Of a stretch of DNA of 32,879 bases, positions 20,347 to 27,099 are shown piece by piece (position 1 is the stretch's first letter; each line of letters opens with the position of its first letter). The stretch is taken from contig CANLIL010000033.1 in NCBI GenBank assembly GCA_947491305.1, forward strand, positions 1-32,879, read 5' to 3'. This stretch comes from Flavobacteriales bacterium. GTDB lineage: Bacteria; Bacteroidota; Bacteroidia; Flavobacteriales_D; Crocinitomicaceae. Under the pieces are notes generated by a model that was not told where the DNA came from, ran no database searches, and saw only the letters and a list, made by a program, of their open reading frames with translations. The position numbers and the translations under genes were made by a program.

Positions 20347-20982
20347 ATGGAACTTTTTATTGGTATTTTTGCAGCGTTAATTTCAGTTGTCAATCCTTTG
20401 GGAACGATACCTGTATTCATTAGTTTAACAAAAGAAGAAACAAAAAGAAACCGCAATAAAACAGCAATTTGGACATCTTTCAACGTTGCTGTGATTTTAT
20501 TAATTTCATTTTTTATTGGAAATTACGTCTTGCAATTTTTTGGTGTTTCAATTAATTCATTGAGAATAGCCGGTGGTTTAATTATTACTGCTGCAGGTTT
20601 CTCGTTATTAAACGGCTCCTTTACAAAACACAAAGGAATGAAACGTTCAAGTGTTCAAGTTGATATAGAAACACGCGCCGAAGTTTCGTTAACGCCTTTA
20701 GCAATTCCAATGTTGGCTGGACCAGGATCAATTTCATTGTTGATAGCATACAATCAGACGGCTAGCTCTTTTTATGATTTTTTATGGGGAACTGCAGCTA
20801 TAATTGCAACATCGTTAGTTGTTTTTTTGGTACTTAAATCATCTCAATTTATTGTCAAATTATTGGGTGGATCTGGTTTAAATGCTGTTTCTAGAATAAT
20901 TGGTTTTATTGAAATTGCGATTGGTATAGAATATGTAACGTCTGCCATCCAAGCAATGTTATTGAGTTGGAAGTTAATTTAA
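20347..20982 (+). CDS. MarC-family inner-membrane protein
   Basis: A 211-residue protein with six hydrophobic helices, of the MarC (UPF0056) family. Family marks are FAALISVVNPLGTIPVFISL at residues 7-26, GGLIITAAGFSLLNG near 75-90, and LTPLAIPMLAGPGSISLLI near 115-135. The family was once thought to be multidrug transporters, but its substrate is unknown. A GAACTTTG seven-of-eight match to the -7 element lies 11 bases before the ATG. Its stop codon interlocks with that of the convergent lysozyme gene. Confidence 0.85.
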   Translation: MELFIGIFAALISVVNPLGTIPVFISLTKEETKRNRNKTAIWTSFNVAVILLISFFIGNYVLQFFGVSINSLRIAGGLIITAAGFSLLNGSFTKHKGMKRSSVQVDIETRAEVSLTPLAIPMLAGPGSISLLIAYNQTASSFYDFLWGTAAIIATSLVVFLVLKSSQFIVKLLGGSGLNAVSRIIGFIEIAIGIEYVTSAIQAMLLSWKLI

Positions 20983-21749
20983 TAAAACGCAATTTTTGAA
21001 ACATTAAAATCCAAGCGAGTATCACAACCAGGCAAAGATCCTTTTTCGCTAAATTGCCAATGTATGATGCGACTGTCTTCAATTTTTTCAGGACGTTTGC
21101 TATAGGCAGCAATCCAAAACTTGTAATTTTTAAAATCATTCTGAAATTTAGAATCGAAGTAGTAGTAAGATGTATAAATAATTGGTCGCATCCCTGTTTT
21201 TGACTCAACGTAAATTAACCATTTTTTCATTGCGGCAATTAATTCTTGGTCATTGCGTGCATTGCGTTCAACGTCTAAAACTGGTGGTAAATCGTAATCT
21301 GATTTCTTCCACGTATTTAAAAAATGCTTTGCTTGAAGAATAGGGTCTTTCTTAGGTAAGAAAAAATGATAAGCTCCGTGTGGCACTTTTAGTTTTAATA
21401 GCGTGTTACGGTTGTATTCCCATTGTGTATCACAGTGATCGCCGCCTTCTGTAGCCTTACAATAAACAAAATGAATAATGGAATCGTAACCTTCTTGCTG
21501 AAATATTTTATACCAATCAACTTTTCCTTGGTGGTGAGAAACATCAATGCCAAATGCTGGAAATCCTTCAGGAATCGAGTAGAGAATTTCTTTTTTCACT
21601 GCTATTGCTTGTTGCTTGTTTAGAAACACGTTTATTTTATAAAAAATAAAACCTCCAAAACCTAAGGCAACTAATACTAAAACAAGCCAAATGTAGGTTG
21701 TTTTCTTTTTTCTGCGTTTAACTGTTTTTTTGATACGTTTTTTCGCCAT
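20979..21749 (-). CDS. Membrane-anchored GH25 lysozyme (muramidase)
   Basis: A 256-residue glycoside hydrolase family 25 enzyme that cleaves the N-acetylmuramic acid to N-acetylglucosamine bond in peptidoglycan. A strongly basic N-terminus (residues 1-17) and one transmembrane helix (about 19-38) anchor it in the inner membrane with the catalytic domain in the periplasm. The GH25 motifs are all present: FGIDVSHHQG (Asp69), VYCKATEGG, GAYHFF and the catalytic pair in PPVLDVE (Asp159, Glu161). Such an enzyme in the cell's own periplasm suggests wall remodelling rather than attack on others. The gene starts 10 bases after the rplS terminator and may be read by leak-through or from a weak promoter inside it. 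Confidence 0.88.
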   Translation of the reverse strand: MAKKRIKKTVKRRKKKTTYIWLVLVLVALGFGGFIFYKINVFLNKQQAIAVKKEILYSIPEGFPAFGIDVSHHQGKVDWYKIFQQEGYDSIIHFVYCKATEGGDHCDTQWEYNRNTLLKLKVPHGAYHFFLPKKDPILQAKHFLNTWKKSDYDLPPVLDVERNARNDQELIAAMKKWLIYVESKTGMRPIIYTSYYYFDSKFQNDFKNYKFWIAAYSKRPEKIEDSRIIHWQFSEKGSLPGCDTRLDFNVSKIAFY

Positions 21750-22342: not shown

Positions 22343-22786
22343 ATGTCAAAATCTAAACGCGAAAAAATTACTATTGGACGAAGAGAAGTGGCTAATTTAC
22401 CACAATTTGGGTTGATGCATGTTGCGGTAAAAGTTGATTCAGGTGCTTATACTTCTAGTATTCACGTTTCTTCATGTCAAGAGATTGATATGGAAGGTGC
22501 AACATTATTAGAGGTTGTTTTTTTAGATGCAAATCATCCATCGTTTGACAATGAAAAACATTATTTCTCGAATTATAGAATGAAAAAAGTTCGAAGTTCT
22601 ACGGGACAAGAACAACTGCGTTATTTTATATTTTGTACCTTAGATATTTTAGGACAGCACATCAAAACAGAATTTTCATTAACTGAACGAAAAGGCATGC
22701 GCTTTCCAATTTTATTGGGTAGAAAATTACTTAATAACCGTTTTATCATTGACACATCCTTAAAAAATACCTATAAAACCATTTAA
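22343..22786 (+). CDS. rimB: RimB-like retropepsin-fold aspartic protease (ATP-dependent zinc protease family)
   Basis: A 147-residue soluble protein of the family first named ATP-dependent zinc protease and now known to have a retropepsin fold. The active-site motif is [14 protein letters not shown] (Asp32-Ser33-Gly34), with the family ending [20 protein letters not shown]. In Pseudomonas the RimB protein acts with the glutamate ligase RimK, cleaving glutamate tails added to ribosomal protein S6. Here it stands first in an operon, ten bases ahead of rimK, which supports the same partnership. It has no signal peptide and should be cytoplasmic. The catalytic motif here reads DSG, with Ser replacing the more usual Thr, a common variant in aspartic proteases. 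Confidence 0.85.
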
Positions 22787-22796
22787 TATTTTTAAC

Positions 22797-23675
22797 ATGA
22801 AAATTGGAATTTTATCTCGAAATAGTAATTTATATTCAACAAAAAGATTAGTTGAAGCAGCCGTTGATCGTGGACACGAAGCGCATGTAATTGACCATTT
22901 AAAATGTACGATTGAAATCGAACAAAACGGTCCGTCTTTGTTTTATGGTGGTGAATATTTGTTAGGTTTTGATGCTGTGGTTCCTAGAATTGGAGCTTCT
23001 GTTACGTTTTATGGAACAGCAGTTGTTCGTCAATTTGAAATGATGAACGTATTTTCTGCCGTTGGCTCTCGAGGTATTGTCCATTCGCGCGATAAACTTC
23101 GTTGCTTGCAAGTTTTATCGAAAGAAGGTATTGGCTTACCGAAAACAGTTTTTACAAATTATTCAAAAGATGTTGCGCACGTTGTAGATTCTGCTGGCGG
23201 TGCTCCTGTTGTGTTGAAATTGTTGGAAGGAACACAAGGATTGGGAGTTGTGTTAGCTGAGAATCAAAATGCTGCTCAATCTGTTTTAGAGGCATTTAAT
23301 GGACTTCGAGCACGTGTGATTGTGCAAGAGTTTGTAAAAGAAGCAAAAGGTGCAGATATTCGTGCGTTTGTTGTCGACGGTGAAGTTGTTGGCGCCATGA
23401 AACGTCAAGGTAAACCGGGCGAATTTCGTTCAAATTTGCACCGCGGTGGCACATCTCAGATAATAGAATTGTCCGTAGAAGAAAAATATACGGCAATTTT
23501 AGCAGCTAAAGCGCTAGGATTAGGAATTGCAGGCGTTGATATGTTGCAATCGGAACGTGGACCTTTGGTTTTGGAAGTCAATTCTTCACCAGGTTTAGAA
23601 GGTATTGAAAAAACGACGCATCAAAATATCGCAGACAAAATAATACAATACATAGAAAAAAATGTCAATCGTTAA
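22797..23675 (+). CDS. rimK: RimK-type ATP-grasp ligase (ribosomal protein S6 L-glutamate ligase family)
   Basis: A 292-residue cytoplasmic ATP-grasp amidoligase, close to the length of E. coli RimK (300). It uses ATP to join an amino acid, in RimK glutamate, to a C-terminal carboxylate, forming poly-glutamate tails on S6. The N-terminal [20 protein letters not shown] is highly typical; the ATP-grasp core shows [65 protein letters not shown] and the metal site [13 protein letters not shown]. It lies between the RimB-like protease and an AstE-like zinc enzyme, overlapping the latter by 14 bases. Whether S6 or a free metabolite is the substrate cannot be told from this window. Confidence 0.92.
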
Positions 23676-24633
23676 ACACAAGAAATTTGTCATTTTAGGG
23701 AAAGAAATTTTACCGGGAAAAAGTGCGCAGTTAAATTTAGATGTAGCAAAATTACATACAACAACGCCTATTTTAGTTCCTGTAATTGTTGAACGTGCAA
23801 AAGTAGATGGACCTGTTGTTTTGTTAATGGCTGGTTTACATGGCGATGAAATCAATGGCGTTGAAATCGTTCGAAGAATTATTCGCAAAGGTTTTAATAA
23901 ACCTTTGGTGGGTACAATTATTTGCATCCCTGTTTTCAATATTTTTGGTTTTTTAAACTTAAAACGTGAGTTACCTGACGGTCGTGATTTGAATCGAAGT
24001 TTTCCGGGCACAAACAATGGATCCTTAGCTTCGCAGTTCGCATTTCACTTTATGAAAGAAATTGCGCCTCACGTTGATTATATCATCGATTTTCATACGG
24101 GTTCTGCTCAAAGAAATAATTTTCCTCAAATAAGATGTGCTTTCAAAGATTCGGAAAGCCTAGAATTAGCCACTATTTTTAATCCTCCAATTGTATTAAA
24201 CACGGCTTATATTTCTAAAACAATTCGAGAAGCGATTATAAAAAAAGGTAAAAAAATGTTGCTATTCGAAGGCGGTAAATCCAATAATATTGAGGAATTT
24301 GTCATCGAAGAAGGATTGAACGGTGTTAAACGTTTCTTAAACCATTTAGGAATGCGAGCGTTTAAAATGGAAAATGTTAGAAGCAACGAAACAAAATTTT
24401 TAGCTGAAAGCAAATGGATGCGTGCCCCACACTCTGGGATGTTTCAAACGTTGGTCGGAAATGGGTCGGCTGTTATTAAAGGTGATATTATTGGAATTGT
24501 AACAGATCCATTTGGTATGTCTGAACGAAAAGTAAAAGCCCCAAACGATGGTTATATTCTTTGTTTAAATGAATCTCCAGTTGTTTACAAAGGTGATGCA
24601 ATTTTTCACATTGGTAAAAAACAACACTTATAA
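23662..24633 (+). CDS. AstE/aspartoacylase-family zinc deacylase or carboxypeptidase
   Basis: A 323-residue zinc enzyme of the succinylglutamate desuccinylase/aspartoacylase family, M14-like fold. The zinc ligands are His60 and Glu63 in GLHGDEING and His145 in DFHTGS; the Arg/Asn substrate motif is RDLNRSFPG (about 108-116), and Glu203 in LLFEGG is the likely catalytic base. The C-terminal 80 residues form a small beta domain ([20 protein letters not shown]). It begins 14 bases inside the end of rimK and is the third gene of the operon. Since no arginine-catabolism genes are nearby, it is more likely to trim or unlock the RimK product than to act on succinylglutamate; that is inference. Confidence 0.85.
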
Positions 24634-24691: not shown

Positions 24692-25507
24692 ATGTCAGTG
24701 CACAAACAAATAAAAAAGGTAACAACACATACCTTACAAGAAATGAAAAATGCTAATGTGAAAATAGCTATGTTAACTGGCTATGATTTCTCAATGGCAC
24801 GTATCATTGATGAAGCTGGAATTGATATCATTTTAGTAGGCGATTCTGCTTCGAATGTGATGGCTGGACACGAAACTACCTTGCCAATTACATTAGATCA
24901 AATGATTTACCATGCTTCGTCCGTAGTTAGAGCGGTGAAACGTTCGTTAGTTGTTGTCGATTTACCATTTGGAACGTATCAAGGAAACTCTAAAGAGGCC
25001 TTGTCTTCTTCGATTAAAATTATGAAAGAATCGGGTGGACACGCTGTGAAAATGGAAGGTGGAATAGAAATTATTGAATCTGTTAAACGAATTTTAACAG
25101 CAGGAATTCCAGTGATGGGACATTTGGGTTTAACGCCTCAATCGATTTATAAATTTGGAACATATACTGTTCGCGCAAAAGAAGAAGAAGAAGCGCAACG
25201 CTTGATAGCAGACGCACTAGCTTTAGAAGAGGCAGGTTGTTTTGCAATTGTACTGGAAAAAATACCTGCTAAATTAGCAGAGTTGGTTGCGAAAAAATTA
25301 ACAATCCCAATTATTGGAATTGGTGCTGGAAATGGTGTCGACGGTCAAGTATTGGTTGTACACGATATGCTAGGGATTAATAACGAATTTAGTCCCCGTT
25401 TTTTAAGAAAATACGCCAATCTTTATGAGTTAATGATGCAAGCTTTTCAGCAGTACATTGTTGACGTAAAAGCGGGTGATTTCCCAAATGAAAAAGAGCA
25501 ATATTGA
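24692..25507 (+). CDS. panB: 3-methyl-2-oxobutanoate hydroxymethyltransferase
   Basis: A 271-residue cytoplasmic enzyme that transfers the hydroxymethyl group of 5,10-methylenetetrahydrofolate to 2-oxoisovalerate, giving ketopantoate, the first committed step to pantothenate and coenzyme A. Magnesium ligands are Asp51 ([14 protein letters not shown]), Asp90 ([11 protein letters not shown]) and the Glu of KMEGG; the catalytic Glu lies in [11 protein letters not shown]. Also conserved are [12 protein letters not shown] and [19 protein letters not shown]. It has its own -7 element, so it is probably not part of the rimK operon. No other pan gene is adjacent. A heptanucleotide array begins on the base after its stop codon. 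Confidence 0.95.
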
Positions 25508-26316: not shown

Positions 26317-26550
26317 ATGAAAAACAAGATCACTTCATTCTTAAAAGCTAAAAAGTTCATTTTATTGGGAGCTATTTTGGGTGCAATTGGAGGATACGCT
26401 TACTATTATTACATAGGATGTGTTTCTGGTACTTGCGCCATTACTTCAAGTCCAATTAATTCAACGTTGTATGGCATTTTTATGGGTGGATTGTTAGTAG
26501 ATTTAATAGAAACAATAAGTACCAAAAAGACAAAAAATGGAAAACAGTAA
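26317..26550 (+). CDS. DUF6132-family small membrane protein
   Basis: A 77-residue inner-membrane protein with two hydrophobic helices (about 14-33 and 50-66) joined by a loop that carries the family motif GCVSGTCAITSSP, including Cys35 and Cys40. The protein family is common in Bacteroidota and of unknown function; the paired cysteines suggest redox or sulfur handling. The gene overlaps the first of two rhodanese genes by 14 bases and thus heads a three-gene operon, which supports a link to sulfur transfer. It has a -7 element four bases upstream of the ATG. Confidence 0.75.
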   Translation: MKNKITSFLKAKKFILLGAILGAIGGYAYYYYIGCVSGTCAITSSPINSTLYGIFMGGLLVDLIETISTKKTKNGKQ

Positions 26551-26797
26551 TTTTACAGTAGTAGATGTTAGAACACCTGGAGAATTTGCAGGAGGTAACG
26601 TAGCAGGATCAATTAATATTCCGTTACAGGAAATCGTTGACAGAGCAGGTGAGTTAGATAACATGGTGAAACCAATTATTTTCTGTTGTGCAAGTGGCAA
26701 CAGAAGTGGACAAGCTGCAGCTTATTTCAAAGCACAAGGTTTGGATTGTGAAAATGGTGGTTCTTGGTTAGATGTAAACTATAATTTTTCTAAATAA
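26537..26797 (+). CDS. Single-domain rhodanese (sulfurtransferase), first of two
   Basis: An 86-residue cytoplasmic rhodanese domain. It begins with VVDVRTPGEFAGGNVAGSIN, the usual DVR motif, and has the active-site loop CCASGNRS with the catalytic Cys51 preceded by a second cysteine at 50, and Arg56 closing the loop. Such enzymes carry a persulfide sulfur on the cysteine. It overlaps the DUF6132 gene by 14 bases and the second rhodanese by one base (TAATG), so all three are translationally coupled. Confidence 0.88.
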   Translation: MENSNFTVVDVRTPGEFAGGNVAGSINIPLQEIVDRAGELDNMVKPIIFCCASGNRSGQAAAYFKAQGLDCENGGSWLDVNYNFSK

Positions 26798-27099
26798 TGG
26801 GATTTCTAAGTAGTTTATTCGGACCAAAAGTTGACATGAAACAATTAGTTAATGAAGGTGCTGTCATTGTTGACGTGAGAACACCAGGTGAGTACCAAGG
26901 TGGACACATCAAAGGATCTGTAAATATTCCATTACAAGCTTTGAGCAACGGACTGTCGAAGTTAAAAAAGGACAAAGTTGTTATCACGTGTTGTGCATCA
27001 GGTATGAGAAGTGCTTCTGCAAAATCTATTTTAAAGTCAAATGGATTTGTAGCGCACAATGGTGGAGCATGGATTAGTTTGCAATCAAAAATTAGATAA
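26797..27099 (+). CDS. Single-domain rhodanese (sulfurtransferase), second of two
   Basis: A 100-residue rhodanese homologous to the preceding one. After a 20-residue N-terminal extension (MGFLSSLFGPKVDMKQLVNE) come IVDVRTPGEYQGGHIKGSVN and the loop CCASGMRS (Cys65, catalytic Cys66, Arg71). The identical CCASG loop start and shared NIPLQ motif point to an old tandem duplication, though overall identity is modest. Last gene of the operon; a terminator follows 20 bases downstream. Confidence 0.88.
   Translation: MGFLSSLFGPKVDMKQLVNEGAVIVDVRTPGEYQGGHIKGSVNIPLQALSNGLSKLKKDKVVITCCASGMRSASAKSILKSNGFVAHNGGAWISLQSKIR

Follow-up and report, generated by a model that had tools for sequence, protein, structure and literature searches.

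A rimB-like, rimK and astE-like gene trio in a Crocinitomicaceae genome as a candidate module for poly-alpha-L-glutamate synthesis and turnover

Introduction

RimK is commonly annotated as the ligase of ribosomal protein S6. In the closest described systems, RimABK and RimBK of Pseudomonas, the RimK ligase and the retropepsin RimB are encoded in one operon, and together they synthesize and cleave poly-alpha-glutamate (PMC11957791, PMC10092738). Here we analyzed a stretch of 32,879 nucleotides (contig CANLIL010000033.1 of assembly GCA_947491305.1; hereafter the window) from a Flavobacteriales bacterium of the Crocinitomicaceae, where rimK travels with a rimB-like gene and with a third gene, encoding an AstE-like zinc hydrolase. 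Besides having this third gene, the window differs from the Pseudomonas systems in that the S6 protein of the organism lacks a terminal glutamate and the RimB-like protein scores below the cut-off of the RimB equivalog model.

Ligation of glutamate into chains has been shown for RimK of Pseudomonas and E. coli, which are relatives of the protein in the window. RimB of P. fluorescens cuts stretches of at least about five or six consecutive glutamates and stimulates poly-alpha-glutamate synthesis by RimK, and free polyglutamate is found in vivo at a low level (PMC11957791). The hybrid RimBK proteins that the same paper describes for Flavobacteriales and Rhodobacterales contain the same two domains in fused form, and we found them in genomes of our named loci in which astE stands alone. 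The rlo operon of P. aeruginosa likewise combines a retropepsin with an ATP-grasp protein, polyglutamate cleavage and an osmotic phenotype, but RloA has a signal peptide, the RloB partner is an inactive transglutaminase, and no AstE is named in the available text (PMC12239564). A further parallel is the cyanophycin cycle of CphA, CphB and CphZ, in which an ATP-grasp polymerase, a depolymerase and a finishing dipeptidase of the AstE fold correspond to RimK, RimB and AstE. In our case, however, the polymer would be poly-alpha-glutamate and not one of Arg and Asp, the depolymerase is a retropepsin, the AstE-like protein is merely 18–19% identical to CphZ, and the adjacent ligase is RimK, with no cyanophycin synthetase next door.

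Literature searches combining RimK with aspartoacylase, ATP-grasp with desuccinylase, and polyglutamylation with carboxypeptidase found no description of the trio, although subscription journals were mostly uncovered and an earlier mention is possible. The words succinylglutamate, aspartoacylase and peptidase M14 are absent from PMC11957791. The three RimB/RimK papers that were word-searched make no mention of such a zinc hydrolase, and we read the trio most readily as a polyglutamate cycle with a third enzyme.

Results and discussion

The trio consists of three genes on the forward strand: a rimB-like gene for a retropepsin-like aspartic endopeptidase (22343–22786, 147 amino acids (aa)), rimK for an ATP-grasp alpha-L-glutamate ligase (22797–23675, 292 aa), and an astE-like gene for a predicted zinc N-acyl-amino-acid/dipeptide hydrolase of the M14 fold (23662–24633, 323 aa). 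The 10-base gap between rimB and rimK (22787–22796) and the 14-base overlap of rimK and astE (23662–23675) that the initial annotation had described are borne out exactly by the coordinates of the open reading frames (ORFs), and its statement that all three active sites are intact agrees with the homolog alignments, in which the predicted catalytic residues are conserved. The RimB-like protein scores 68.7 bits against PF05618 (cut-off 27), and its predicted catalytic residue D32, in the DSG of 'VDSGA', is invariant among 19 aligned homologs together with K30, G34, R93 and R116. The assignments of the other two proteins held as well. RimK scores 372 bits against NF007764, the curated S6--L-glutamate ligase model (cut-off 331), and merely 61.1 bits against cya_phycin_syn (cut-off 850); the solved structures best related to it are 7qyr and 7qys, labelled 'probable alpha-L-glutamate ligase'. 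The AstE-like protein scores 115.9 bits against PF24827, AstE_AspA_cat (cut-off 25), and its nearest named relatives are from Crocinitomicaceae, Flavobacteriales and Fluviicola-like metagenome-assembled genomes.

The co-occurrence of the AstE-like gene with RimK is far beyond chance. We searched 395 Bacteroidota genomes with profiles of AstE and RimK at E up to 1e-60 for both, and found an AstE ortholog in 106 genomes and RimK in 118; all 106 were inside the 118, and none of the 277 genomes without RimK had an AstE ortholog by this search. The AstE scores spanned 514 to 246 bits, the lowest being that of G408; a further six proteins with 208–219 bits also passed the threshold, and each of their genomes has a stronger match. 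Because relatedness inflates genome-level p-values, the genus-level tally is the more sober statistic: AstE was found in 42 of 48 genera with RimK and in 0 of 123 without. The initial annotation had held that scattering of the trio in close relatives would refute its reading, and this check did not refute it. Among 148 of these genomes that we analyzed as a smaller set, 44 have an AstE ortholog scoring 370–514 bits with the trio AstE profile, the next-best proteins being 8 paralogs with 109–218 bits; a broad match to PF24827 is insufficient for orthology, as many other proteins in the same genomes also match. All 44 carry RimK, and astE adjoins rimK in 35 of them. The RimB-like protein and RimK above the cut-off occur in an identical set of 42 genomes out of 148, adjacent or fused in all 42. 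A second RimK type (285–315 bits) was found in six further genomes of the 148 that have no RimB anywhere, and in four of the six astE lies beside it, as expected if AstE acts on the RimK product itself. Apparent cases of AstE without RimK in two genomes of the 148 (G095 and G135) were rejected, the trio profile scores of 163 and 123 bits being those of paralogs.

The association also survives rearrangement of the genes. Eighty named loci, selected for highest similarity rather than at random, contained all three genes in 55 cases, RimK and AstE only in 8, and AstE only in 17. In every one of the 17 lone-astE genomes, RimB and RimK were found elsewhere in one open frame of 454–495 aa, matching the RimBK hybrids of PMC11957791. 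In many Flavobacteriaceae the trio has uvrC on one side and the 5-formyltetrahydrofolate cyclo-ligase gene on the other (both named by sequence recognition and not by a family search), and at 15 of the 17 lone-astE loci at least one of the two is found no more than two genes from astE, without rimB-rimK. Thus, gene moves preserve the link between AstE and RimBK. A six-frame search of the eight RimK-AstE loci detected no RimB-like piece in seven and a 58-aa piece in one, and a genome-wide RimB search for three of them found none for L164 and L185 and a fusion elsewhere for L205. A second set of 50 loci came from 62 further AstE genomes (the 12 omitted are all of genus g8 and all have RimK). It contained the trio in 35 (23 by ORF and another 12 by six-frame search), RimK and AstE only in 6, and AstE only in 8, all eight with RimK elsewhere in the genome; in L397, RimB and RimK were called and AstE was not, and an AstE match lies 474 bases from RimK. 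Neighbour clustering revealed no constant fourth gene or acceptor, but uvrC, the cyclo-ligase gene and other housekeeping-looking genes instead, the clusters being mostly named by eye or left unnamed, with a Pfam search for ten neighbour proteins only.

Two arrangements were seen in addition. In L205 (G167) the RimK-AstE pair has the 58-aa RimB-like piece upstream, while RimB and RimK share a 460-aa frame at another place in the genome, which resembles a replacement in progress. In genus g8, an 848-aa same-strand ORF, ClpC-like by eye, adjoins the fused rimBK in all six loci (L292–L294, L296, L297 and L299), and a gene of the DUF421 (YetF) type follows in four of the six (Pfam on one).

The trio was also found outside Bacteroidota, on plasmids or secondary replicons, none of which is counted in the Bacteroidota figures. 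Vibrio europaeus and V. nigripulchritudo carry it in the order rimK-astE-rimB, and Salinivibrio, Phaeobacter (roseobacter) and Acaryochloris (cyanobacterium) in the order rimB-rimK-astE. In Photobacterium DA100 a RimB match closely precedes the rimK-astE pair, and Photobacterium GJ3 has rimK-astE, for which no RimB match was found. The differing gene orders across lineages suggest that selection keeps the three genes together. Some loci show other combinations: a V. parahaemolyticus stretch contains an AstE homolog in two pieces and no RimK within the stretch, AstE homologs on plasmids of Haloferax larsenii (31% identical) and Legionella lytica (34%), unscored by the trio profile, have no annotated RimK in the stretch fetched, and rimK of Leisingera and Allocoleopsis has no annotated AstE adjoining in plasmid gene tables that are incomplete.

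The structure model of the AstE-like protein is confident (predicted local distance difference test 92.9, predicted template modelling score 0.90). The nearest structure was 3cdx (Z 35.0), and the closest solved relative of known activity was DoeB/EutE, an N-acetyl-L-2,4-diaminobutyrate deacetylase (6twm: Z 34.2, root-mean-square deviation (rmsd) 2.6, 305 residues); 3na6, 2qj8, 3fmc and 3lwu (Z 33.6–28.5) are annotated by family only. The cyanophycin dipeptidase CphZ (8eip/8ein: Z 26.6, rmsd 3.2–3.3, 297–298 residues) ranked above a true succinylglutamate desuccinylase (2g9d, Z 19.0) and aspartoacylase (2gu2, Z 18.3), while carboxypeptidases including Csd4 aligned with Z of about 17–19 over about 185–207 residues. 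As far as the model goes, the CphZ fold extends over the whole AstE-like protein; a shared fold shows no function. The protein scores below the cut-offs of the family models for DoeB (TIGR02994: 86.9 bits, cut-off 402.7) and aspartoacylase (NF002601: 20.7 bits, cut-off 180).

The active-site residues H60, E63, H145, N111-R112 and E203 of the AstE-like protein are conserved in the alignment, and the HxxE...H site, the NR pair and the catalytic Glu of the AstE/AspA family are invariant in 44/44 orthologs; we take their individual roles from family knowledge, with N111-R112 presumably being the carboxylate-binding pair. Beyond these zinc and carboxylate residues, N153, R158, R189, W252 and R254 are invariant in 44/44 orthologs and 80/80 named loci, two samples that may share species, and in 7/7 full-length proteins from Vibrionaceae, Phaeobacter and Acaryochloris, whereas R158, R189 and R254 are kept in 0/7 weak homologs. 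On an ungapped count backwards from the catalytic Glu in the alignment, R189 lies opposite an Asp of DoeB. The substrate of DoeB has a cationic side chain, so this exchange suggests that the substrate of the AstE-like enzyme is acidic, with the roles of the arginines being read from the alignment.

Taking these observations together, we lean towards the view that the trio is a module for the synthesis and turnover of poly-alpha-L-glutamate with a dedicated third enzyme. RimK would ligate glutamate into alpha-linked chains, either free or on an acceptor, and the RimB-like retropepsin would stimulate RimK and cut chains with about five or six or more contiguous glutamates. Because of this length limit short oligoglutamates would be left after the cleavage, and an AstE-fold enzyme carrying extra arginines would suit the finishing role: it may hydrolyse the short glutamate peptides or trim C-terminal glutamate to yield free glutamate. 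The last step is modelled on CphZ, which finishes cyanophycin by hydrolysing the beta-Asp-Arg dipeptide released from it (PMC12661447). We infer all three activities here, with ligation, cleavage and stimulation shown in relatives and the AstE step proposed altogether. The initial annotation had suggested a cycle of writing, trimming and erasing in which the AstE-like enzyme removes a cap or the terminal residue; the three genes do behave as one functional unit and AstE plausibly acts on the RimK product, but we found no evidence of a cap, nor is a cap needed. The peptide metabolite that it had named as an alternative is the better fit, in the form of free poly-alpha-glutamate. If the trio is such a module, many annotations of 'ribosome modification' would be wrong or partial, and the cell would possess an intracellular biopolymer cycle analogous to that of cyanophycin, directly testable with three purified proteins.

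Several points, in addition to the inflation of p-values by relatedness, weigh against the module. The RimB-like protein scores 72.2 bits against the RimB equivalog NF052261, under its cut-off of 200, and "RimB-like" is therefore the safer name; what stands of the earlier "RimB" label is the retropepsin family and the DSG motif. Twelve of the 118 RimK genomes have no AstE ortholog at the threshold used, so RimK is able to do without the AstE-like enzyme, and in V. campbellii and Vibrio THAF190c no AstE adjoins rimK-rimB. The word-searched literature on the Pseudomonas system names rimB (and rimA) and no AstE, so the cycle there would run without one or with another enzyme. Of the 8 paralogs of unknown role, 4 retain R158, 4 retain R189 and 2 retain R254. 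Finally, the closest solved relative by sequence with known activity, DoeB, is a small-molecule deacetylase, and a small N-acyl amino acid could therefore still be the substrate of the AstE-like enzyme.

A role directed to the ribosome, which had looked attractive from the position of the operon, would have RimK polyglutamylating S6, RimB trimming it and AstE taking off the last residues. RimK does exceed the curated S6-ligase cut-off, and RimK and RimB act on RpsF in Pseudomonas (PMC11957791). Against this role, the same paper notes that RpsF lacks a terminal Glu in some bacteria. The gene rplS (L19; 21810–22163, − strand) is indeed divergent from the trio in the window, but it is the same neighbour in only 5 of the 80 named loci (by sequence recognition) and probably lies outside the module. 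S6 as a RimK substrate would carry a terminal Glu, which may be a strict requirement. The S6 protein of this genome (single match) ends ...KKVTATPAPTAEAEA, i.e. ...TPAPTAEAEA, and not in Glu-Glu, the ending for which the initial annotation had proposed to look. We compared S6 tails in 31 genomes: 16 that carry the trio, our own included (the 148-genome set has 31 such genomes), and 15 that lack it. S6 ended in Glu in 1 of the 16 and did not in the other 15, compared with 1 of 15 trio-less genomes; an end in Asp or Glu was seen in 6/16 trio genomes, and in 0/9 of those of the window's own class. The S6 tails thus do not track the trio, which weakens the case for S6 as a substrate despite the S6-ligase score of RimK; the main substrate in this organism is probably another one, and we regard the ribosome cycle as quite unlikely.

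The acceptor could instead be a protein other than S6, whose tails do not fit, with AstE as a C-terminal deglutamylase; the system would then parallel, in bacteria, the TTLL/CCP pair of tubulin, which is itself an ATP-grasp-like ligase with an M14 peptidase. The alignment of the AstE model with carboxypeptidases and the presence of the N111-R112 pair, with its carboxylate-binding role, speak for this; nevertheless, no constant neighbour was noticed as an acceptor (which need not adjoin), and the pocket would have to admit a protein tail, in a class of enzymes known to act on small substrates. In our view this reading is distinctly improbable. Mammalian RIMKLA/B make N-acetylaspartylglutamate (NAAG) and beta-citrylglutamate, and in a small-metabolite pathway of this kind RimK would make an N-acyl-glutamate or a Glu-containing dipeptide and AstE would hydrolyse it. 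The AstE-fold relatives DoeB, ASPA and aminoacylase 3 act on N-acyl amino acids, and astE lies beside rimK also where RimB is missing; such a pathway, however, leaves no job for the RimB-like enzyme, the partner of RimK in 42/42 genomes with RimK above the cut-off, and neither an acyl-transferase nor another ligase stood out in the recurring clusters of neighbours, which were mostly inspected without a family search. We consider this pathway unlikely. Since the AstE family includes many metabolic deacylases, AstE might also be a housekeeping deacylase that merely hitchhikes with rimBK. This is highly improbable and already contradicted by the counts within Bacteroidota: the ortholog occurs in 0/277 RimK-less genomes, though two RimK-less genomes of the 148 hold a paralog, and astE persists in genomes whose rimB-rimK sits elsewhere as a fusion.

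The proposed polyglutamate cycle might serve ionic or osmotic balance, working with Mg2+ and mechanosensitive channels, an extension that we hold only tentatively. Glutamate polymerisation would hide osmotically active anions in one polyanion, and RimB and AstE would release them. MgtE, CorA and MscS genes come directly after the V. europaeus trio and the rimK-astE pair of Photobacterium GJ3; MscS lies beside the trio in V. nigripulchritudo, and MgtE and MscS in Salinivibrio (the neighbours in V. europaeus and V. nigripulchritudo were confirmed by Pfam). In Phaeobacter a ZntB gene is found two genes upstream of the trio on the other strand, in Acaryochloris an antiporter four genes away, and near rimK-astE of Photobacterium DA100 no transporter of these kinds was seen. 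In the first Bacteroidota set, transporters occupied 9/260 immediate same-strand slots versus 1/771 further out (p 3e-5), the families having been chosen post hoc, after the Vibrio plasmids had been inspected; by lineage, as judged, there were six versus 1 (p 0.0014). Four of the nine cases (L155, L156, L171 and L315, the last a rimB-rimK locus without AstE) were search seeds picked as neighbours, which favours the near slots. The slot counts exclude ORFs shorter than 100 aa, whereby one 72-aa MscS-like piece was dropped (L148, offset 6), and transporter detection, which relied on resemblance to a small number of seed proteins, probably missed some. Among the 50 loci of the second set the counts were 1/99 near versus 0/499 far (p 0.17), which is no significant replication, and the pooled counts were 10/359 versus 1/1270. 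With 1 versus 0 in the second sample the transporter link is unproven, and the ionic or osmotic link is a lead and not a result. We take the KEGG Orthology (KO) entries K05844 and K03284 to be rimK and corA, respectively. K05844 (glutamate modification) and KO entries for magnesium uptake and a mechanosensitive channel are commoner in brackish than in marine relatives, and the authors attribute the glutamate-modification entry to protein charge (PMC10219603). A hypo-osmotic phenotype is also described for the Rlo retropepsins of P. aeruginosa (PMC12239564).

Additional observations

A second AstE subfamily (195–218 bits to the trio profile) occurs near other genes in L028 and L221. In L028 (1–2295) it is near an uncharacterised 447-aa protein without a Pfam match, and in L221 (G064) near an ATP-grasp-like ORF that scores 34 bits with the RimK profile; this subfamily is possibly a parallel ligase/hydrolase system. 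A similar pairing occurs in L213 (G053:C30:197000-201500), where a 366-aa frame for an ATP-grasp protein related to RimK (63 bits) adjoins a distant AstE-fold protein (26 bits).

In the window, panB (24692–25507, + strand) begins 58 bases downstream of the trio on the same strand and is probably outside the module, being the same neighbour in 2/80 named loci by sequence recognition. On the other side, a GH25 lysozyme-like protein, which by eye has a basic stretch at its N-terminus and a hydrophobic segment resembling an anchor, is encoded at 20979–21749 (− strand), between a MarC-like gene (by eye) and rplS. Further downstream, a small membrane-protein-like ORF (26317–26550) stands directly before two tandem short ORFs (26537–26797 and 26797–27099, + strand) that are rhodanese-domain-like by eye, with the motif CCASG.

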